A DNA stretch of 54,465 bases from an uncultured Clostridia bacterium (GTDB lineage: Bacteria > Bacillota > Clostridia > Oscillospirales > Acutalibacteraceae), in NCBI GenBank assembly GCA_947628175.1, contig CANQZA010000007.1, positions 1 through 54,465 on the forward strand, given 5' to 3'. This document shows, piece by piece, positions 10,215-20,578 of this stretch. The stretch's first letter is position 1. Each line of letters opens with the position of its first letter. Made by a program: the position numbers and the translations under genes. The notes under the pieces are model-generated. The model had not been told where the DNA came from, ran no database searches, and saw only the letters and a list, made by a program, of their open reading frames with translations.

Positions 10215-10242
10215 TTGACATTGTTAGCAGCAAGTGTATAAT
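10215..10242 (+). promoter_or_regulatory. Promoter of arg operon
   Basis: Exact consensus hexamers TTGACA (10215-10220) and TATAAT (10237-10242) with a 16-base spacer lie 40 bases before argC. A second TATAAT occurs at 10251-10256. Confidence 0.8.
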
Positions 10243-10281: not shown

Positions 10282-11223
10282 ATGAAAAAAGTATTCATTG
10301 ACGGTAAAGACGGAACGACAGGCTTAAAAATCTATTCAAGAATATCGCAAAGAGATGATATTGAACTTTTGCAGATTGATGAAAGCAAAAGAAAAGATCC
10401 TGCCGAAAGGGCAGAACTGATTAATGAAAGTGATATTACATTTCTCTGTCTGCCCGATGCAGCATCCATTGAAGCAGTATCCATGATAAAAAGCGACAGA
10501 GTTAAAATAATTGACACTTCAACTGCTCACCGCACGCTTGCGCAATGGGCATACGGCTTTGCCGAGCTCGGAAGCGATTTCAGGAAGAAAATAGAAACCT
10601 TTGACAGAATAGCCGTTCCCGGATGCTACGCAAGCGGATTCAACTCAATAGTATATCCGCTCATCAAAAACGGATTTATCAGCAGAGATTGCGACATTGT
10701 ATGCTATGCGCTGAGCGGTTATACAGGCGCAGGAAAAAAAGGAATTGCGCAATATGAAGATGATAACAGAGACAAAGAGCTTGACTCACCCCGTCTCTAT
10801 GCGCTCACACAGCAGCATAAGCATTTGAAAGAAATGAAGGTGATAAGCGGTCTCAGCAAGGAGCCTGTTTTTTCACCGATCATATGTGACTATCCTCAGG
10901 GAATGGTTGTAGCCATCGGCTTATATACTGACTCCATGAGCAAAAAATATACCATACACAACATTTATGAAATGTTTAAAATGCACTACGACGGCTCAAA
11001 AATAGTGAAAGTCCGAAAACCCGGATATACACAGGCAATGATAGGCTCCAATAACTTTGCAAACAGAGATGATATGGAAATTGAGATTAACGGAAATGAG
11101 GACAGAATCCTTATCACCTCACGCTTTGACAATCTCGGCAAGGGAGCCTGCGGTGCCGCATTGCAATGCCTGAACATAACACTTGGAATGGACGAAACAA
11201 CAGGACTGAATATAGGAGAATAA
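10282..11223 (+). CDS. argC: N-acetyl-gamma-glutamyl-phosphate reductase, type 2
   Basis: NADPH-dependent third enzyme of arginine synthesis, converting N-acetylglutamyl phosphate to the semialdehyde. At 313 residues it is the shorter type 2 ArgC. The N-terminal nucleotide site reads FIDGKDGTTGLKIYSRI, the catalytic Cys115 is in AVPGCYASGF, and SGYTGAGKKG plus the late GKGACGAALQCLN complete the family pattern. GGAG lies 11 bases before ATG 10282. First gene of a seven-gene operon ending in the carB-dapF fusion; argJ starts 6 bases after its stop. Confidence 0.93.
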   Translation: MKKVFIDGKDGTTGLKIYSRISQRDDIELLQIDESKRKDPAERAELINESDITFLCLPDAASIEAVSMIKSDRVKIIDTSTAHRTLAQWAYGFAELGSDFRKKIETFDRIAVPGCYASGFNSIVYPLIKNGFISRDCDIVCYALSGYTGAGKKGIAQYEDDNRDKELDSPRLYALTQQHKHLKEMKVISGLSKEPVFSPIICDYPQGMVVAIGLYTDSMSKKYTIHNIYEMFKMHYDGSKIVKVRKPGYTQAMIGSNNFANRDDMEIEINGNEDRILITSRFDNLGKGACGAALQCLNITLGMDETTGLNIGE

Positions 11224-11229
11224 AATACT

Positions 11230-12495
11230 GTGAAAACCGATATAGATATAAAAGTTACGGACGGGGGAATATGCGCCGCAAGGGGTTTTAAAGCAAACGG
11301 CACATACTGCGGAATAAAAACACCGTCTATCGACAATCAAAACCCCGATATAAAACACAAAAATGATATCTGCCTTTTTGTAAGCGATGTTGTATGCAAC
11401 GCCGCGGCTGTTTACACAAAAAACAAGGTTAAGGGCGCGCCAATTATCGTTACAAAAAGCAATCTTGAAAAATCCGGCAACAAGGCAATTGCAGTAATCG
11501 CTAATTCCAAAAACGCAAACACCTGCAATTCTGACGGTGTGGAAAAGGCGCAGGAAATGTGCCGTCTTGTTTCACAGGAGCTCGGAATTCCTCAGGAGCA
11601 GGTAATCGTCGCTTCAACGGGTGTTATAGGACAGGTACTCCCCATTGAGCCTATAAGAAAGGCTGTTCCCATTTTAGCCGGGGGTCTTTGCTACAAGAAA
11701 AATCTTGAGGCCGCAACCGCTATTATGACAACGGACACGGTAAAAAAGGAATATGCGGTTGAATTTGAATTGGACGGCTGTGTATGCCATATAGGCGGAA
11801 TGGCAAAGGGAAGCGGTATGATTCACCCGAATATGGCGACGACGCTCAACTTCATCACGACAGACTGTGCCATATCGTCCAATCTTCTGCAAAAGGCATT
11901 AAGCGAAATTACAGAGGTAACATATAACTGCCTTTCCATTGACGGAGACACTTCCACAAACGACATGGTGTCGCTTATGGCAAACGGACTTGCCGGAAAT
12001 GACGAAATTTCCTCAGAAGGTGAAAGTTTTGATATTTTTAAACAAGCACTTTATGAGGTTATGGCAAATCTCACAAGAATGCTTGCCAAGGACGGCGAAG
12101 GCGCAACGAAACTGCTTGAATGTATATGCAGCGGAGCGCCTAATAAAAATACTGCCATAAAAATTGCAAAAAGCGTTGTATGCTCCACCCTTTTCAAAGC
12201 TGCGATATTCGGCGAGGATGCGAACTGGGGAAGAATACTGTGTGCAATCGGCTATACCGATGCAGACTTTGATATAAGCAAAGTGAGTGTTGACATAAAA
12301 TCAAATAAAGGAATCATCAGCGTCTGCAAAAACTGCGAGGGTATCGAATTCTCAGAGGAAGAAGCAAGCACCGTACTTTCAGACGACGAAATCTACATTT
12401 TAATTCATCTTAATCAGGGCAATGAAACGGCCACCGCATGGGGCTGTGACCTGACATACGACTATGTAAAAATAAACGGTGATTACAGAACTTAG
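11230..12495 (+). CDS. argJ: Bifunctional glutamate N-acetyltransferase/amino-acid acetyltransferase
   Basis: ArgJ recycles the acetyl group from N-acetylornithine to glutamate and in many bacteria also makes N-acetylglutamate from acetyl-CoA. The 421-residue precursor carries the self-cleavage motif KGSGMIHPNMATTL; cleavage is expected between Ala203 and the nucleophile Thr204 to give alpha and beta chains. The downstream GEDANWGRILCAIGY segment and C-terminal NQGNETATAWGCDLTYDY are diagnostic. The start is GTG 11230 with GGAGAA from the end of argC upstream. No separate argA or argE is in view, consistent with the cyclic pathway. Confidence 0.94.
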   Translation: MKTDIDIKVTDGGICAARGFKANGTYCGIKTPSIDNQNPDIKHKNDICLFVSDVVCNAAAVYTKNKVKGAPIIVTKSNLEKSGNKAIAVIANSKNANTCNSDGVEKAQEMCRLVSQELGIPQEQVIVASTGVIGQVLPIEPIRKAVPILAGGLCYKKNLEAATAIMTTDTVKKEYAVEFELDGCVCHIGGMAKGSGMIHPNMATTLNFITTDCAISSNLLQKALSEITEVTYNCLSIDGDTSTNDMVSLMANGLAGNDEISSEGESFDIFKQALYEVMANLTRMLAKDGEGATKLLECICSGAPNKNTAIKIAKSVVCSTLFKAAIFGEDANWGRILCAIGYTDADFDISKVSVDIKSNKGIISVCKNCEGIEFSEEEASTVLSDDEIYILIHLNQGNETATAWGCDLTYDYVKINGDYRT

Positions 12496-12541: not shown

Positions 12542-13402
12542 ATGAATAATATTAATAATGCTCAGAAGGCGGAAATCATTGCTCATGCACTTCCGCACAT
12601 TCAAAAGTACAGAAAAAAAATTGTTGTTGTAAAATACGGCGGAAACGCAATGATAAACGAAGAACTCAAGGAGGCTGTAATGCGCGATCTTGTTCTGCTT
12701 ACAACAGTAGGGATAAAGGTTGTGCTTGTTCACGGCGGAGGCCCCGCAATTACCGAAACGCTTGCAAAAATGAATGTTGAAAGCAGATTTAAAGACGGCC
12801 TCAGAGTGACCGACAGAGATACCATTGATGTTGTACAGATGGTACTTGCGGGAAAGGTAAACAAGGATCTTGTATGCCAGATAGGAAACATGGGAGGTCA
12901 CGCGATAGGACTTTCGGGTATGGATGCAAACATGATAAAATGCACTCCTCTTAATGATTCCCACGGTTATGTAGGCAAAATAGAGGAAATGAATATGGAT
13001 GTTGTCGAGGAAGCTCTTGAGCACAGTTTTATCCCTGTCATTTCATCAATTGGATATGATGAAAACGGCAACTGTTATAATATTAACGCCGACACGGTTG
13101 CCGCGGCCGTTGCAGGCGCACTGCGCGCAGAGGCACTTGTTTCTATGACAGATATAGCAGGTCTTCTCAGGGATAAAAATGACGACTCCACGCTTATTCA
13201 CAGAGTATATATTTCTGATACACCCGCGCTTATTGCCGAGGGAATAATCAGCGGTGGAATGATACCCAAAATTGATTCGATGACCCAAGCGATAAGAGAA
13301 GGCGTAAAAAAAGCATTTATAATTGACGGAAGAGTTCCGCATTCCATACTGATGGAACTTCTCACAGATGAAGGTATGGGTACAATGTTTAGGAGCAGGT
13401 GA
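12542..13402 (+). CDS. argB: Acetylglutamate kinase
   Basis: Phosphorylates N-acetylglutamate in the second step of arginine synthesis. The 286-residue amino-acid-kinase fold shows VVVKYGGNAM, the glycine-rich VLVHGGGPAI, a substrate loop FKDGLRVTD, NINADTVAAAVAGAL and SGGMIPKIDS. The roughly 26-residue N-terminal extension before the first strand (with the PHIQKYRKK helix) is the kind found in arginine-inhibited hexameric enzymes, so feedback inhibition is likely but inferred. AGGGGAT lies before ATG 12542. Confidence 0.95.
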   Translation: MNNINNAQKAEIIAHALPHIQKYRKKIVVVKYGGNAMINEELKEAVMRDLVLLTTVGIKVVLVHGGGPAITETLAKMNVESRFKDGLRVTDRDTIDVVQMVLAGKVNKDLVCQIGNMGGHAIGLSGMDANMIKCTPLNDSHGYVGKIEEMNMDVVEEALEHSFIPVISSIGYDENGNCYNINADTVAAAVAGALRAEALVSMTDIAGLLRDKNDDSTLIHRVYISDTPALIAEGIISGGMIPKIDSMTQAIREGVKKAFIIDGRVPHSILMELLTDEGMGTMFRSR

Positions 13403-13406
13403 TAAA

Positions 13407-14567
13407 ATGAATACAAAAAAATATGATAAAAAATATATAGCAAACACATACGGCAGATTTGATGTGACAATCGTTAAGGGCAAGGGCTCAACGCTCTACG
13501 ATGAAAACGGTAAGGAATATATTGATTTCGGTTCGGGAATCGGCGTTACTGCCTTCGGAATATGTGATGACGAATGGAAAAAGGCTGTTGAGAAACAGCT
13601 TTCAATGATACAGCATACGAGCAATCTTTATTACACGGAGCCGTGCGCAAGGCTCGCTAAAATACTGTGTGACAGAACCGGAATGAAAAAGGTCTTTTTC
13701 TGCAACAGCGGTGCTGAGGCAAACGAGGGTGCAATAAAATTTGCAAGGAAATATTCATATGACAAATACGGCGAAGGCAGAAGCACTATTCTGACTTTGA
13801 CGGACTCTTTTCACGGAAGAACGATAACCACACTCGCGGCAACGGGACAGGACTCCTTTCACACGACCTTCGGTCCGTTTACTCCCGGGTTTAAATACTG
13901 CACCGCAAATGATATGGATATGCTGAGAGAAATGGCAACAGATGATGTATGCGCTATAATGTTTGAGTGTGTGCAGGGCGAGGGCGGCGTCAACAATCTC
14001 AGCTATGAATTTATTAAAGCTATTGAAAACATTGCAAAGCAAAAGGATATTTTAATGCTTGTTGATGAAGTACAGACAGGAAACGGCAGAACGGGCAGAT
14101 ATTTTGCATATGAACATTTTGATATTATGCCGGATATCGTTTCAACCGCCAAAGGCCTTGCGGGAGGTCTTCCTATGGGGGCTGTACTGTTTGGGGAAAA
14201 AGTGCAGAACTGCCCCTCCCCTTCAAGCCACGGCTCAACCTTCGGAGGAAACCCCGTATGTGCTGCGGGCGCATGCTCAATAGTAGAGAGAATAGATGAA
14301 AAATTCCTTGAAAATGTAAGAAAAAAAAGCGCTTACATAAAAGACTTTTTATCCGTAACAGAAAAGGTCAAATCCATATCCGGAATGGGGCTTATGCTTG
14401 GGATTGAAACAGACGACGATTCAAAGGAAATTGCAGAAAAATGCCTTGAAAAAGGACTTTTGGTGCTTACTGCAAAAACCAAAATAAGACTCTTACCGGC
14501 GCTTAACATCAGCATGGAAGAACTGGAAAAAGGATTAACTATTTTGAAAGAGGTAATTGAAAAATGA
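13407..14567 (+). CDS. argD: Acetylornithine aminotransferase
   Basis: PLP-dependent class III aminotransferase giving N-acetylornithine; ArgD enzymes often also serve lysine synthesis. In 386 residues it shows FCNSGAEANEGAIK, DSFHGRT, the PLP ring-binding VDEVQTGNGRTG, Schiff-base Lys249 in STAKGLAGG, and GSTFGGNPVCAA. ATG 13407 follows argB by 4 bases, with AGGAG in the end of argB; the longer frame overlapping argB is rejected. It ends in an ATGA overlap with argF. Confidence 0.94.
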   Translation: MNTKKYDKKYIANTYGRFDVTIVKGKGSTLYDENGKEYIDFGSGIGVTAFGICDDEWKKAVEKQLSMIQHTSNLYYTEPCARLAKILCDRTGMKKVFFCNSGAEANEGAIKFARKYSYDKYGEGRSTILTLTDSFHGRTITTLAATGQDSFHTTFGPFTPGFKYCTANDMDMLREMATDDVCAIMFECVQGEGGVNNLSYEFIKAIENIAKQKDILMLVDEVQTGNGRTGRYFAYEHFDIMPDIVSTAKGLAGGLPMGAVLFGEKVQNCPSPSSHGSTFGGNPVCAAGACSIVERIDEKFLENVRKKSAYIKDFLSVTEKVKSISGMGLMLGIETDDDSKEIAEKCLEKGLLVLTAKTKIRLLPALNISMEELEKGLTILKEVIEK

Positions 14568-15466
14568 AGCATTTATTAAAATTGCAGGATCTTGAGCAGC
14601 ATGATATTCTTGATATTTTAAATCTTGCAGACCAGCTTAAATACGAGACAAAACACGGTATTGAACATCACCACCTAAAAGGAAAAACCCTCGGTATGAT
14701 TTTCCAAAAAAGCTCCACAAGAACACGGGTGAGCTTTGAAACGGGAATGTATCAGCTCGGAGGTCAGGCACTTTTTCTTTCAAACCGTGATTTGCAGATA
14801 GGAAGAGGCGAACCTGTTGAAGACACTGCAAGAGTACTCTCACGCTATCTTGACGGAATTATGATTAGAACCTTTGCGCAGAAGGAGGTTGAGGATTTGG
14901 CAAAATACGGCTCTATTCCTATTATCAACGGACTTACCGATTACTGCCATCCGTGCCAGGTTCTTGCTGATCTGATGACAATAAGAGAATATAAAAAGAG
15001 CTTTGACGGGCTTAAGTTATGCTTTATAGGCGATGGAAACAATATGGCAAACAGCCTGATTGTCGGGGCAGTTAAAATGGGAATGCGCTGCGCTGTTGCC
15101 TGCCCTGATTATTACAGACCTGATCCCGAAATAGTCAAATGGGCATATGAAAACGGTGATTTTATGTGCAGCAGCAATATAGCCGAGTGTGCCGAAAACG
15201 CCGATGTTTTATACACGGATGTTTGGGCATCAATGGGACAGGAAGAAGAAAAGGCAGAGCGGGAAAAGGTATTCAACACTTTCCAGATTAACGACAAAAT
15301 TATGGCAGTTGCCAAAAAAGACGCTATGGTGCTTCACTGTCTTCCCGCCCACCGGGAGGAAGAAATCACCGCAAAGGTCTTTGAGGAGCACGCAGGTGAA
15401 ATATTCGACGAAGCAGAAAACAGACTTCATGCGCAAAAAGCAGTACTTGTTAAACTATTAGGTTGA
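14564..15466 (+). CDS. argF: Ornithine carbamoyltransferase
   Basis: Condenses ornithine and carbamoyl phosphate to citrulline. The 300-residue protein has the carbamoyl-phosphate loop SSTRTRVSFE, the paired HPCQVLADLMT, ornithine-site DVWASMGQE and HCLPAHREEE, so the activity is anabolic OTC rather than aspartate carbamoyltransferase. The start overlaps the argD stop by 4 bases (translational coupling). Its substrate is made by the next two genes, which places supply and use in one operon. Confidence 0.95.
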   Translation: MKHLLKLQDLEQHDILDILNLADQLKYETKHGIEHHHLKGKTLGMIFQKSSTRTRVSFETGMYQLGGQALFLSNRDLQIGRGEPVEDTARVLSRYLDGIMIRTFAQKEVEDLAKYGSIPIINGLTDYCHPCQVLADLMTIREYKKSFDGLKLCFIGDGNNMANSLIVGAVKMGMRCAVACPDYYRPDPEIVKWAYENGDFMCSSNIAECAENADVLYTDVWASMGQEEEKAEREKVFNTFQINDKIMAVAKKDAMVLHCLPAHREEEITAKVFEEHAGEIFDEAENRLHAQKAVLVKLLG

Positions 15467-15471
15467 TAAAG

Positions 15472-16557
15472 ATGAAGAATGAAAAAATTTACATCTGCCT
15501 TGCAGACGGCAGTATATTTGAAGGAAAAAGCTTCGGTGCCTCAGGAGAGGTGCTCGGCGAGCTTGTATTTGCAACAGGCATGGGCGGATATATAGAAACG
15601 CTCACCGATCCGAGTTATTATGGGCAGATTGTTATGCAGACCTTTCCCCTGATCGGTAACTACGGCTTTATAAAAAGCGATATGGAAAGCAGGGGCTGCG
15701 CGGTCAGTGCATATGTTGTAAGGGAATTCTGTGAAAATCCGTCAAACTTCAGATGTGACGAAACGCTTGAAAAATTTCTGACAGACAACAATATCGTCGG
15801 TGTATATGGGGTTGACACAAGAGAAATCACAAAAAGAATCCGCGAGAACGGTGTTATAAACGCAGTGATTACTGACAATCCCGAAAATGTAGATTATGAC
15901 AGGGTAAAAGCATATAAAGTTACAGATGCCGTAAAATCAGTATCGTCAAAAAAGCCTTTCATGAGTGCTGCCGACACGCACAAATTCAATGTTGTACTCA
16001 TTGATTACGGAACAAAAAACAATATAATCAGAGAGCTCAACAAAAGAGGATGCAATGTTGCAGTTGTTCCTTATGACACAAAAGCTGAGGACATTCTTTC
16101 GCTCAATCCCGACGGAATCATGCTTTCAAACGGCCCCGGGGATCCGAGGGAGAATACACAGGCCATAGCGGAACTGAAAAAACTCGTCGGCAAAAAACCG
16201 ATTTTTGCAATTTGTCTCGGTCATCAACTTCTTGCCCTTTCACAGGGAGCAAAAACCACAAAACTCAAATACGGTCACAGAGGCATCAATCAGCCTGTTA
16301 AAAATCTTGAGACGGGAAGAACCTTTATATCTGCACAGAATCATGGATATACTGTTGTAAACGAGTCCGTGGAAGCCGCAGGAGGACGCGTAAGCTATAT
16401 CAATGCCAACGACGGCACCTGTGAAGGTATTGACTATGATGAGAAAATGGCATTTTCAGTACAGTTTCACCCTGAAGCCTGCTCAGGTCCTCATGATACA
16501 AAATTTATTTTTGACAAATTTATTGACAGGATGGGAGGTAATCATAATGCCTCTTAA
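15472..16557 (+). CDS. carA: Carbamoyl-phosphate synthase small (glutaminase) subunit
   Basis: Hydrolyses glutamine and passes ammonia to CarB. The 361-residue protein has the CarA N-terminal domain (LADGSIFEGKSFGA, YVVREFCENPSNF) and a class I glutamine amidotransferase domain with LSNGPGDPR, nucleophile Cys248 in FAICLGHQLLA and the His/Glu pair in VQFHPEACSGPHDT. ATG 15472 follows argF by 5 bases with AGGTTGAT upstream; a TTG nine bases earlier is possible but less likely. The end overlaps the carB start by 11 bases. Confidence 0.94.
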   Translation: MKNEKIYICLADGSIFEGKSFGASGEVLGELVFATGMGGYIETLTDPSYYGQIVMQTFPLIGNYGFIKSDMESRGCAVSAYVVREFCENPSNFRCDETLEKFLTDNNIVGVYGVDTREITKRIRENGVINAVITDNPENVDYDRVKAYKVTDAVKSVSSKKPFMSAADTHKFNVVLIDYGTKNNIIRELNKRGCNVAVVPYDTKAEDILSLNPDGIMLSNGPGDPRENTQAIAELKKLVGKKPIFAICLGHQLLALSQGAKTTKLKYGHRGINQPVKNLETGRTFISAQNHGYTVVNESVEAAGGRVSYINANDGTCEGIDYDEKMAFSVQFHPEACSGPHDTKFIFDKFIDRMGGNHNAS

Positions 16558-19500
16558 CAAAAATATAAAAAAAGTGCTTGTGATCGGATCCGGACCTATT
16601 GTTATAGGGCAGGCAGCAGAATTTGACTATGCGGGAGCGCAGGCGTGCCGTGTCTTAAAAGACGAGGGCATCGAAGTTGTTCTTGTCAACTCGAACCCTG
16701 CAACGATTATGACAGACAAGGCGCTCGCGGATCACATATATCTTGAACCTCTTACCGAGGAAACACTCAAGAGAATCATTGAAAAAGAAAGACCTGATTC
16801 CATTCTCTGCGGTCTTGGAGGACAGACAGGCCTTACAATAGGTATGCAGCTTGCCAAAAACGGCTATCTGGATAAAATGGGCGTCAAGCTTCTCGGTACA
16901 GACGCACAGGCAATTGACAAGGCGGAGGACAGGCAGATGTTCCGCGACACAATGGTAAAAATCGGACAACCTGTTGTCCCGAGCGATATAGCTACAACTG
17001 TTGAACAAGCCGAAAAAATTGCCCGGCAGATAGGATATCCTGTTATCATCCGGCCTGCCTTTACTCTCGGCGGTGCAGGCGGCGGCGTTGCAAACAACGA
17101 GAAAGAACTGGAAATCATATCAAAAAACGGACTGATGCTCTCTCCCATTACCCAGATACTCGTTGAAAGGTATATTGCGGGTTGGAAAGAAATTGAATTC
17201 GAGGTTATGCGTGACAGTGTGGGAAATGTAATTGCCGTATGCTCAATGGAAAATTTTGATCCTGTAGGTATTCACACAGGAGACAGCATTGTTATCGCAC
17301 CCGCTGTCACGCTTTCGGACAAGGAATACCAGATGCTGCGCTCTGCATCCCTTGACATTATAACGGAGCTCGGTATAGAAGGCGGCTGCAACTGTCAGTT
17401 TGCACTTAATCCCGAGAGCTTTGAATATTCGGTTATTGAGGTAAATCCGAGAGTCTCCCGTTCATCGGCACTTGCCTCAAAAGCAACAGGTTATCCGATT
17501 GCAAAGGTAACTACAAAAATTGCGCTCGGATATACTCTGGATGAAATCAGAAATGATATCACGGGAAAAACCTGTGCCTGCTTTGAACCAACACTTGACT
17601 ATGTTGTTGTCAAGCTGCCCAAATGGCCGTTTGACAAATTTGTCAATGCCTCAAGAAAGCTCGGTACTCAGATGAAGGCTACGGGCGAGGTTATGAGCAT
17701 TGCACCCAATTTTGAAATGGCAATTATGAAAGCCGTCAGAGGCGCGGAGATAGGTCTTGACACCCTCAACAACAAAGCGCTTGACAGCCTTGACACTGTA
17801 AGCAAACTCCACGATCAGGATGATTTAAGACTTTTCAGTGTTTTCAAAGCGCTTAAAGAAGGAATCAGTATTGAAAAAATACACGAGATTACAAGGATTG
17901 ACGAGTGGTTTTTGAGTAAGCTCAAAAATCTTGCCGACTACGAAAAAGAAATCGACGCCGTTCCTCTTTCAAAGGAATTATATAAAAAGGGAAAAAGGCT
18001 TGGCTATACGGATAAGGCGCTTGAGAGAATCAGCAAAAATTCCTTGGCATATCACCGGGACTGCGTATACAAAATGGTTGATACCTGCGGCGCTGAATTT
18101 CAAGCTCAGACTCCTTATTTTTATTCAACCTATGATGAGCACTGCGAATCAAGGACATTAAAACAAAGCGGAAAAGAAAAAATCATTGTATTGGGCTCAG
18201 GGCCTATCAGAATAGGACAAGGCATTGAATTTGACTATTCATGCGTTCACTGCGTATGGACTCTCAAAAACCTCGGATATGAAGTTATACTGATTAACAA
18301 CAATCCCGAGACGGTATCTACAGACTTTGACACAGGTGACAGACTTTATTTTGAGCCGTTGACAGAAGAAGATGTCATGAACATCATCAAGGTAGAAAAT
18401 CCGATAGGCGTTGTTGTCGCATTCGGCGGTCAGACTGCAATCAAGCTGACAAAATTTCTTGATGACAACAACATAAACATTCTCGGCACAAGCGCTGAAT
18501 CCATTGATATCGCAGAGGATCGTGAAAGATTTGATGCTCTTCTTGAAAAATTTTCCATATACAGACCAAAGGGTGAAAGCGTTATGACGCTCGAAGGTGC
18601 CCTGCGTGCCGCAAAGCGTCTTGAATACCCGGTTCTTCTGAGGCCTTCCTATGTCATAGGCGGTCAGAATATGACTATCGCATATACTGACGACGATGTT
18701 GAGCAGTATATGGAAATCATTCTCTCGCAGGGAATTGAAAATCCCGTGCTCATTGATAAATATATGATGGGAACGGAGCTTGAGGTTGACTGTATTTCAG
18801 ACGGAAAAGAAGTTCTTATCCCGGGAATTATGGAACATATTGAGAGAGCCGGCGTTCATTCAGGTGATTCGATAGCAGTATATCCGCCGTACAATCTTAA
18901 TGATATGATGCTGGAGAAGGTATGCGACATTTCACAAAAACTTGCCCTATCACTAAAAACAAAGGGACTTGTAAACATTCAGTATCTTATCTATCAAAAT
19001 GAGCTATATGTTATTGAGGTTAATCCGAGAGCTTCAAGAACAATACCTTACATCAGCAAGGTTACCGGTGTTCCCATGGTTGAGCTTGCCTCAAAAATAA
19101 TGGTCGGATCCAGTCTCAGCGAACTCGGATACGGTACAGGGCTGTACCGCACGCCGCCTTATTATGCGGTAAAAGTGCCGGTATTCAGCTTTGAAAAACT
19201 CAACGATGTGAATTCAAAGCTCGGTCCTGAAATGAAATCAACCGGTGAGGTACTCGGTGTAGGCAAGAATCTGATTGAGGCGCTCTTCAAGGGGCTTGTT
19301 TCAGCCGGCTTCAAAACAGATTTTCATAAAAAGAACGACCACGGTGTGCTTATTACTGTCACCGAGCAGGACAGATTTGAAATCGTCGGCCTTGCCAAAA
19401 AGCTTGATGATCTCGGTGCAAGAATTTGGGCAACGCCCGAAACCGCAAAAGCCATAGAAAGTCTCGGTATTCAGGTCAATGTCGTCAATAAGCTGCGTGA

Positions 19501-20578
19501 GGATAATTCAATTATGGAATTGGTTGAATCAGGTCTGCTTGATTACATCGTCTATACAGGCAAGAGTGATAAAAAATCAATCACCGATTATATAAAACTG
19601 CATAACAGAGCAAATCAGCTCGGTATAGCAACTATAACATCACTTGATACGGCAAACGCCGTTGCGGACATCATAGCGTCACACTACAAACAGACCAACA
19701 CGGAGCTTGTTGACATAAACAATATGCGCAAAGAAAAAGGCATACTCAAATTCTCCAAAATGGAGGGCACGGGCGATGATTACATTTTCTTTGATAATCA
19801 ATGCGGCATCATCACCTGTCCTGAGAGCTTTTCAATTGAATTTTCGGACAGGCACCACGGCATTGGCGGAGACGGTATCGTATTGATTGAGAAAAGCGAA
19901 GTTGCCGACGCAAAAATGAGAATATTCAACATAGACGGCTCAGAGGGAAAAATGGCAGGAAATTCAATAAGGTGTCTTGGCAAATATCTTTATGATAATC
20001 AAATGGTTGACAGCACCGAAATAACCGTTGAAACGGCATCCGGAATCAGAGAACTTTCCCTGTTCACAAGAAACGCAAAGGTATCCTCGGCCGCTGTCAA
20101 TATGGGTAAAGCTCAGCTTGCACCCGACAAAATTCCCGTAAGCATAAATTCCGAAAAGGTAATGGATTATGATACCATTATCGGAGGAAAGCCTTACAGA
20201 ATAAATTGCTGTTCAATAGGTAATCCTCACTGCGTTGTGTTTGTTGATAATGTGGATAAAATTGACATATCAAAGATAGGTCCTCAGTTTGAAACAGCCG
20301 ACATTTTCCCTGAAAGAGTCAACACCGAATTTGTAAGGGTTGTTAACCCCACAACGCTTAAAATGAGAGTATGGGAGAGAGGAAACGGCGAAACACCCGC
20401 CTGCGGCACAGGTGCATGCGCTGCGGTTATATGTGCAGTTGAAAACGGCTATTGCAGTAAAGGTGAAAATATCACCGTAAAGCTGCGCGGCGGTGATCTC
20501 ATTGTAAAATATACCGATGAAAAGGTAATCCTTACAGGCGACTGCAACCTTATATATAAAGGTGAAATTGAATATTGA
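16547..20578 (+). CDS. carB-dapF: Fusion: carbamoyl-phosphate synthase large subunit (CarB) + diaminopimelate epimerase (DapF)
   Basis: One uninterrupted 1343-residue frame. Residues 1-about 1059 are a complete CarB: first half from VLVIGSGPIVIGQAAEFDY, second ATP-grasp half from about 545 (IIVLGSGPIRIGQGIEFDY), and an MGS-like regulatory domain at about 930-1050. Without a stop it continues after INNMRKEKG into DapF (about 1066-1343): KMEGTGDDYIFFD, DRHHGIGGDGIVL, GNPHCVVFVDN, ERGNGETPACGTGAC. The second catalytic Cys (Cys1286) is present, but the first (CGNG motif) is Ala1137 in MAGNSIRC. The internal ATG at 19724 has no spaced ribosome site, favouring a true fusion. The start at 16547 has GGGAGG 8 bases upstream. 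It links arginine/pyrimidine supply to lysine/peptidoglycan synthesis; epimerase activity is uncertain. Confidence 0.9.
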   Translation: MPLNKNIKKVLVIGSGPIVIGQAAEFDYAGAQACRVLKDEGIEVVLVNSNPATIMTDKALADHIYLEPLTEETLKRIIEKERPDSILCGLGGQTGLTIGMQLAKNGYLDKMGVKLLGTDAQAIDKAEDRQMFRDTMVKIGQPVVPSDIATTVEQAEKIARQIGYPVIIRPAFTLGGAGGGVANNEKELEIISKNGLMLSPITQILVERYIAGWKEIEFEVMRDSVGNVIAVCSMENFDPVGIHTGDSIVIAPAVTLSDKEYQMLRSASLDIITELGIEGGCNCQFALNPESFEYSVIEVNPRVSRSSALASKATGYPIAKVTTKIALGYTLDEIRNDITGKTCACFEPTLDYVVVKLPKWPFDKFVNASRKLGTQMKATGEVMSIAPNFEMAIMKAVRGAEIGLDTLNNKALDSLDTVSKLHDQDDLRLFSVFKALKEGISIEKIHEITRIDEWFLSKLKNLADYEKEIDAVPLSKELYKKGKRLGYTDKALERISKNSLAYHRDCVYKMVDTCGAEFQAQTPYFYSTYDEHCESRTLKQSGKEKIIVLGSGPIRIGQGIEFDYSCVHCVWTLKNLGYEVILINNNPETVSTDFDTGDRLYFEPLTEEDVMNIIKVENPIGVVVAFGGQTAIKLTKFLDDNNINILGTSAESIDIAEDRERFDALLEKFSIYRPKGESVMTLEGALRAAKRLEYPVLLRPSYVIGGQNMTIAYTDDDVEQYMEIILSQGIENPVLIDKYMMGTELEVDCISDGKEVLIPGIMEHIERAGVHSGDSIAVYPPYNLNDMMLEKVCDISQKLALSLKTKGLVNIQYLIYQNELYVIEVNPRASRTIPYISKVTGVPMVELASKIMVGSSLSELGYGTGLYRTPPYYAVKVPVFSFEKLNDVNSKLGPEMKSTGEVLGVGKNLIEALFKGLVSAGFKTDFHKKNDHGVLITVTEQDRFEIVGLAKKLDDLGARIWATPETAKAIESLGIQVNVVNKLREDNSIMELVESGLLDYIVYTGKSDKKSITDYIKLHNRANQLGIATITSLDTANAVADIIASHYKQTNTELVDINNMRKEKGILKFSKMEGTGDDYIFFDNQCGIITCPESFSIEFSDRHHGIGGDGIVLIEKSEVADAKMRIFNIDGSEGKMAGNSIRCLGKYLYDNQMVDSTEITVETASGIRELSLFTRNAKVSSAAVNMGKAQLAPDKIPVSINSEKVMDYDTIIGGKPYRINCCSIGNPHCVVFVDNVDKIDISKIGPQFETADIFPERVNTEFVRVVNPTTLKMRVWERGNGETPACGTGACAAVICAVENGYCSKGENITVKLRGGDLIVKYTDEKVILTGDCNLIYKGEIEY

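Follow-up and report, generated by a model that had tools for sequence, protein, structure and literature searches.

Introduction

In the human carbamoyl phosphate synthase CPS1, a dead glutaminase-like domain is used for control of the enzyme. Among bacteria, Bacillus subtilis possesses separate carbamoyl phosphate synthases (CPS) linked to arginine and to pyrimidines (PubMed Central, or PMC, article PMC6245113). Here we describe a gene that joins the CPS large subunit, CarB, to a domain matching the diaminopimelate (DAP) epimerase DapF. It lies on contig CANQZA010000007.1 (assembly GCA_947628175.1) of an uncultured Clostridia bacterium (Oscillospirales, Acutalibacteraceae); the whole stretch analysed, positions 1 to 54,465 of the forward strand, is referred to as the window.

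Set beside CarB (PRK05294/TIGR01369), the window protein has the same complete domain set, to which a 284-residue DapF-like C-terminus and an altered allosteric loop are added. With DapF (TIGR00652; PDB 2otn and 9mro) it shares the full-length sequence match, the residues of the distal L-amino-acid site and Cys217, but it differs in having Ala for Cys73, Asp for Asn11, and CarB fused to it. As in B. subtilis, one CarB goes with an arginine operon and another with pyrimidine genes, the arginine copy here bearing the DapF-like tail. Like CPS1, the protein would carry an inactive enzyme domain on a CPS, but the domain is a different one, sits at the other end, and has a regulatory role by our proposal only. 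Among the papers listed by searches of the open-access PMC literature, none dealt with a CarB-DapF fusion as judged by title or abstract start; the fusion may already be flagged by automatic database names.

The carB-dapF fusion and its joint

The fused gene and its parts are as follows.

16547..20578, + strand: fused carB-dapF gene, 1343 residues, frame open throughout
16547..19723, + strand: CarB part, 1059 residues, with Pfam CPSase_L_D1, D2, D3 and MGS
19724..20578, + strand: DapF-like domain, 284 residues, above the TIGR00652 cut-off
19712..19753, + strand: joint DINNMRKEKGILKF, the TELVDIN..KM stretch

The mechanical list of open reading frames begins the fused frame at an upstream ATG, 16403. 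PRK05294 matched residues 1-1047 of the fused protein with 1448.8 bits (cut-off 599), and the DapF profile TIGR00652 matched residues 1068-1342 with 264.3 bits (cut-off 114.65); the score listed for the DapF-like domain was 269.3 bits. The CarB part scored 1417.7 bits against TIGR01369 (cut-off 1027). Residues 1-1049 of E. coli CarB chains, including 1bxr, aligned to window residues 1-1038, and both synthetase halves, the oligomerisation domain and the MGS domain were present.

The same in-frame fusion was found in two congeners at 84% identity (G021 and G149, the latter ending at a contig edge), in Ruminococcus sp. FC2018 (L061), in named metagenome-assembled genomes and in the single-contig genomes G760 and G784. 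A chimera or a frameshift at the joint was rejected on these grounds. The fusion claimed in the original prediction is thus borne out by the open frame, by both profiles and by its relatives, which do not all keep carB and dapF apart; it recurs in the sample of the family.

The joint is nearly fixed in length. Of 176 fusions (123 from sampled genomes and 53 from named loci), 171 had exactly 21 residues from TELVDIN to KM, the exceptions being G032 and G055 (20 residues longer), G493 and G441 (7 longer) and L089 (1 shorter). The ATG at 19724 is codon 1060, and the nearest run resembling a Shine-Dalgarno (SD) sequence, GGAG at 19702-19705, ends 18 nt before it, confirming that no properly spaced ribosome site precedes this ATG. 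An ATG occupied the joint position in 51/65 fusions of the arginine branch defined below, in 81/100 of the other branch and in 4/11 that belong to neither, and an SD-like motif at 4-11 nt before it was found in none of the fusions. By comparison, 116 of 141 scanned carB starts had a motif of a similar set at 4-10 nt. An internal start at ATG 19724 was therefore rejected, and the window gene most likely yields the fusion product only, as judged from the joint.

The active site of the DapF-like domain

The positions concerned were read from an alignment that included 45 standalone DapFs.

19775..19777, + strand: Asn11 position, Asp in the window (Asn in 45/45 standalone DapFs)
19928..19930, + strand: Asn64 equivalent, retained
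19955..19957, + strand: catalytic Cys73 position, Ala (GCA) in the window (Cys in 45/45 standalone DapFs)
20402..20404, + strand: Cys217 equivalent, retained

The column of the catalytic cysteine was located by counting in the 9mro alignment against Gly76, Asn77 and Cys75 of PMC12039745. This cysteine, which precedes a Gly-Asn pair, is Cys75 in Anabaena, Cys83 in Corynebacterium glutamicum and Cys73 in Haemophilus influenzae (PMC12039745, PMC5296763). The alanine of the window aligned with the Cys preceding Gly-Asn in both 2otn and 9mro. The residues of the distal amino acid, Asn64, Asn157, Asn190, Glu208 and Arg209, were all retained. We take Asn15 of the C. glutamicum enzyme to be the Asn11 position. 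In that enzyme, C83A, C221A, N15A and the tested pocket mutants lost activity almost completely (PMC5296763), and a Cys-to-Ser mutation in DapF is stated to hinder catalysis (PMC12039745). In view of these mutants, a domain with Ala at Cys73 and Asp at Asn11, like that of the window, has very probably ceased to be a DAP epimerase. The description of the domain as a full-length DapF in the original prediction held for its length; the missing catalytic cysteine had escaped notice.

The arginine operon and the rest of the genome

The fused gene closes the run argC-argJ-argB-argD-argF-carA-carB::dapF, whose other members are listed here.

10282..11223, + strand: argC, TIGR01851 at 339.2 bits (cut-off 229.85)
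11230..12495, + strand: argJ, TIGR00120 and PRK05388 above cut-off
12542..13402, + strand: argB, TIGR00761 above cut-off
13368..14567, + strand: argD, TIGR00707 above cut-off
14564..15466, + strand: argF, TIGR00658 above cut-off
15463..16557, + strand: carA, PRK12838 at 464.7 bits (cut-off 221), overlapping the carB start at 16547

The start given for argD, 13368, was picked mechanically as the first ATG of the frame and falls inside argB; the true start may be further in. A 12/12 match to the sigma-70 consensus (TTGACA, 16 nt, TATAAT), a consensus match only, stands at 10215-10242, 40 nt before argC. An Rfam scan of the window gave no match at the gathering score.

A second, unfused carB, a frame of 1063 amino acids, was found on contig C58 of the same genome beside genes for a DHODB-type Fe-S protein, DHO_dh, OMPdecase, a phosphoribosyltransferase and aspartate carbamoyltransferase. 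A canonical standalone dapF, followed by dapL (TIGR03542), was found on C15; dapB was present, and a profile search for Ddh gave no match in the genome. The fused domain was 42.5% identical (117/275) to this standalone DapF. Directly 5' of the dapF-dapL pair is a gene for an ANTAR-domain protein (L121:7208-7723); antitermination control of the DAP genes is possible.

Since the second carB accompanies pyrimidine genes, the fused copy belongs with argCJBDF-carA, and, given also the canonical dapF-dapL pair, neither pyrimidine nor DAP synthesis need depend on it in this genome. Judged by sequence, the window gene is the large subunit of an arginine-operon CPS with a DapF-derived C-terminal domain. 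That its DapF part serves lysine and the cell wall in this genome was held unlikely in view of its residues and the second dapF. The proposed tie of arginine and pyrimidine supply to lysine and peptidoglycan synthesis, and with it a CPS/DAP-epimerase link in this genome, is accordingly unlikely.

Distribution and phylogeny of the fusion

CarB-DapF fusion is a widespread architecture in Clostridia. In the family sample at least 68 of the 200 genomes had a full fusion (frames re-read; another, G113, ends at a contig edge), as did at least 57 of 391 in the class sample (E <= 1e-60), where 55 of the 57 were re-read and spread over 27 family codes besides that of the window. In the phylum sample, the match table gave fusions in 19 of 398 genomes (E <= 1e-85), 17 of them outside the class. 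A fused frame was also found in 53 of the 80 named loci kept from the search. Fusions occur in metagenome-assembled genomes labelled Treponema or Spirochaetaceae (L084:9001-10242, L086:9001-10215, L076:4331-5509); transfer or misbinning may account for them. At L250 (G573), L228 (G256) and L189 (G096) the frames spanning the fusion are unusually long, 1463-1578 codons from stop to stop.

Trees of CarB were built with FastTree (209 rows) and IQ-TREE (100 rows); roots were not inferred. In the FastTree topology the main fusions formed one clade of 172 rows (support 100) with three unfused CarBs nested inside. Within it, 67 rows made up a branch (support 100) that contains the window and is called here the arginine branch, and 102 rows made up the other branch (support 85). 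On the IQ-TREE topology the arginine branch was one side of a branch (41 rows, support 100), and the other branch required two changes and is therefore not firmly one clade. In a tree of DapF parts the arginine cluster was weak (64 rows, support 64).

Two of the nested unfused CarBs, those of G066 and G088, are of the arginine type and end in VDINH, followed by a frame resembling ornithine carbamoyltransferase; the third, of G078, is of the other type and is followed by a dapL-looking frame (both neighbours named by eye). We read these three as probable losses of the DapF domain. The CarBs of G032 (L125) and G055 (L198) lay apart from the main clade, and the DapF parts of these two proteins grouped with standalone DapFs (support 97), so that carB and dapF probably became fused here independently for a second time. 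The trees support, but do not prove, a history in which there was one main fusion and one further small one, and in which the domain was lost a few times.

Direct descent of the fusion from the side-by-side, unfused carB and dapF pairs was rejected: their CarBs form another clade (7 rows, support 98), together with the C58 copy of the window genome. The adjacency of carB and dapF therefore probably arose more than once, and transfer between lineages may have occurred. The unfused carB, dapF and dapL neighbours have glmS, guaA, pyrG, purF or nadE nearby.

Residues and constraint in the two branches

The Cys73 position was examined in all fusions. In the arginine branch it was Ala in 56 of 65 rows, Gly in 7, Tyr in 1 and Cys in 1, so that the cysteine was missing in 64/65; the only row with it, G549, has lost most of its pocket. 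In the other branch it was Cys in 77 of 100, Gly in 12, Ser in 8, Ala in 2 and Phe in 1, and both catalytic cysteines were present in the same 77. The 11 rows in neither branch had Cys in 5, Ala in 5 and Gly in 1. Asn11 was replaced in 22/65 arginine-branch rows (Asp in 20, the window among them, and Ser in 2), compared with 2/100 in the other branch. By parsimony on the FastTree topology, which has weak nodes, the Cys73 position changed at least 15 times within the other branch and at least once within the arginine branch.

The remaining site was largely kept. Asn64, Asn157, Asn190, Glu208, Arg209 and Cys217 were all present in 56 of 64 untruncated arginine-branch rows and 99 of 100 in the other branch, and 22 of the 23 other-branch rows without Cys73 retained all six. 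Across the arginine branch the five distal-site residues were retained at a mean of 0.950, compared with 0.907 for 47 other positions invariant in working DapFs; in the 23 other-branch rows without Cys73 the values were 0.991 and 0.952. The pocket residues are thus not relaxed, by a small margin in this comparison. In three fusions, G549 (L252), G133 (L191) and G511 (L248), the DapF part is heavily eroded, with most active-site residues changed and the frame still open.

The ratio of nonsynonymous to synonymous substitution rates (dN/dS) was calculated by the Nei-Gojobori method for 24 pairs, of which four gave no DapF value owing to synonymous saturation and many others were near saturation. 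For the DapF part of the window it was 0.071 against G021, 0.102 against L041, 0.104 against L042 and 0.133 against G071; for the CarB part it was 0.039-0.047 where defined (0.039 against G021). The DapF part of L148 and L051, both without Cys73, gave 0.064, and the range for this part across pairs was 0.019 to 0.144. Such ratios indicate that the arginine-branch domains are under purifying selection.

The allosteric domain of CarB

The DapF-like domain adjoins the MGS domain, in which one loop differs from that of E. coli.

19544..19579, + strand: MGS-domain loop YIVYTGKSDKKS, with Tyr and Gly at the positions of E. coli N1015 and T1017

Residues N1015 to T1017 of E. coli CarB have a role in the binding of uridine monophosphate (UMP). 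The N1015 position was Tyr in 63/67 CarBs of the arginine branch and Ser in 101/102 of the other. The motif [NS]T[ST], which aligns with this region, was found in 1/67 and 101/102 respectively; it also occurred in 1/35 unfused CarBs outside, which mostly retain N1015 and differ after it. Lys993, required for UMP binding (PMC6245113), was retained in 21/67 arginine-branch, 101/102 other-branch and 33/35 unfused outside CarBs. Thr1042, which contacts ornithine, was retained in 67/67, 102/102 and 33/35 respectively.

Other sources of meso-DAP

TIGR00652 was searched at E <= 1e-10 in two genome sets, each including a few unfused genomes, and the fusion was the only match in 39/70 and 36/56 of them. 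In the 56 genomes with the fusion as only DapF plus the window genome, Ddh was above cut-off in 38/57 and gave some match (E <= 0.001) in 41/57.

Retention of Cys73 in the other branch varied with these findings: 13/13 where the fusion was the sole DapF and there was no real Ddh, 25/30 where it was sole and Ddh was present, 8/11 where it was sole and Ddh was partial or not searched, 10/18 where there was a second DapF, and 21/28 in named loci. The first group differed from the second-DapF group with Fisher p = 0.0096, and from the second-DapF and Ddh groups together with p = 0.052, kinship being uncorrected in both. In the arginine branch, three rows had the fusion as sole DapF without Ddh: the eroded G549, and G047 and G166. 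Beside the fusion of G135 (L135:6900-12012) a standalone dapF lies 134 bp downstream, and beside that of G125 (L136:5721-12786) one lies about 2 kb downstream; each shares the strand of its fusion, and pyrG and dapL follow at a greater distance.

A possible function for the domain and its alternatives

The reading we favour, to which we give about an even chance, is that the window gene encodes the CPS of an arginine operon whose DapF-derived domain is non-catalytic, binds a ligand and acts on the synthase. With the catalytic Cys73 lost and the pocket kept, the domain would bind an amino acid, either DAP or one of the arginine pathway; the bound amino acid would affect the neighbouring allosteric domain and hence the CPS, while meso-DAP would come from the separate DapF of the cell. 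If so, the 'DAP epimerase' domain assigned by curated models is misannotated in many genomes, metabolic reconstructions and drug-target lists err where they include it as a DapF, and an amino-acid input has been added at a central control point of arginine and pyrimidine synthesis.

Several observations weigh against this. The strongest, which we cannot explain, comes from G047 (L137) and G166 (L152), two genomes of one genus that are 99% and 97% complete. Both have dapB and dapL, both carry Ala for Cys73 and Asp for Asn11 in the fused domain, and profile searches in them found neither Ddh nor a further DapF; either the fused domain is still active, or the searches overlooked a second epimerase or a wall of another kind. 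The CarB of the window itself retains Lys993 and Thr977. The three nested CarBs without a DapF part show that the CPS can do without the domain. An arginine gene (argC, argB, argD or argF just upstream) was near only 41 of the 65 arginine-branch fusions, many of which lie on short contigs; 10 had no marker gene in the available DNA, and 2 had dapL or pyrG. In some genomes of the arginine branch, G138, G003, G047 and G145 among them, no CarB other than the fused one was matched (a single match at E <= 1e-100 was found in 46/70 genomes), and the branch is therefore not always arginine-specific. Finally, the DapF part evolves faster than CarB in nearly every measured pair, and the margin for the pocket is small, which leaves selection acting on the pocket itself short of proof.

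Unlikely, yet not far-fetched, is a purely structural role, in which the dead domain oligomerises or stabilises the synthase without any ligand. DapF dimerises, the dimer being conserved in solved structures (PMC5296763), and both the near-fixed joint and the purifying selection that persists despite loss of Cys73 would suit such a role. A structural part alone would not call for an unrelaxed ligand pocket, and it too has to face the three CarBs that lack the domain.

It seems improbable that the domain is a slowly decaying passenger, left by an accidental fusion and no longer needed as a DapF once a second dapF or Ddh was present. This would account for the way in which Cys73 loss in the other branch tracks redundancy (0/13 compared with 8/18), for the disappearance of the entire domain from G066, G088 and G078, and for the heavy erosion in G133, G511 and G549. 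However, dN/dS of the DapF part is well below 1 in the dead branch, the pocket is intact in 56 of 64 rows, and the frame has stayed open in 45 sampled genomes and 20 named loci of the arginine branch.

For the window we think it quite improbable that the protein is a true bifunctional enzyme, epimerising LL-DAP to meso-DAP and tying carbamoyl phosphate to lysine and peptidoglycan. The score above the TIGR00652 cut-off, the retained pocket residues and Cys217, and the want of another DapF match in G047 and G166 speak for it; the replacements at Cys73 and Asn11, positions at which C83A and N15A leave C. glutamicum DapF nearly inactive (PMC5296763), and the canonical dapF-dapL pair speak against it. 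For a large part of the other branch, however, this explanation probably holds: the 77 domains with Cys73, its retention in all 13 sole-DapF cases without Ddh, and dapL near 44 of 100 fusions point to a true CPS/DAP-epimerase protein.

New chemistry with one cysteine, Cys217 alone catalysing elimination or proton exchange on an arginine-pathway amino acid, has a precedent in a hydroxyproline epimerase that a Cys-to-Thr change is described as converting to a dehydratase (PMC8142540), and Cys217 is retained in 58/64 arginine-branch rows, but it is lost in the other 6, no candidate substrate is known, and we hold this very improbable.

Internal start and gene neighbourhood in the other branch

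An ATG four codons before F.KM, where free DapF starts, was found in 36 of 100 other-branch genes, 25 of which had an SD-like motif at 4-11 nt; of the 992 remaining in-frame ATGs in these CarB parts, 158 had one. The Arg codon that helps to form the motif was AGG in 20 of the 36 genes with the ATG (3.5 expected from the same genes) and in 6 of 58 without it (6.0 expected). When one row was kept per 80% identity cluster, there were 15 with the ATG, 11 with the SD-like motif and 7 with AGG, compared with 1.5 expected. In the arginine branch this old start was an ATG in 2/65, one with an SD-like motif, and in the window there was no ATG at this position. Part of the other branch may therefore make free DapF besides the fusion.

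A wider history can be proposed tentatively, at well short of an even chance. A dead epimerase would have turned into an amino-acid-sensing allosteric domain of CPS, and the step itself, in which Cys73 goes and the binding pocket stays, would have been taken both where the arginine branch begins and on several occasions within the other; the remaining members of the other branch would be working fusions, and 25 of its 100 would perhaps also make free DapF. The natural series from working fusion, through loss of one cysteine, to loss of the whole domain would let the change from an enzyme to a regulatory or structural part be traced.

Around the 100 other-branch fusions, dapL was found near 44, pyrG near 34, purF near 10 and a type III glutamine synthetase (by Pfam) near 15. 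At least one of dapL, pyrG and purF was near 56, an arginine gene was near 2, and 4 had no marker nearby. The genes neighbouring the fusions thus make a nitrogen-linked operon a plausible birthplace for the fusion. At L124, L126, L129 and L134, genes of glutamine-dependent enzymes (glmS or guaA, pyrG, purF, carA and carB, in varying sets) form operon-like runs that end in dapF-dapL. The run at L124 also holds nadE, and DAP genes are thus grouped with users of glutamine.

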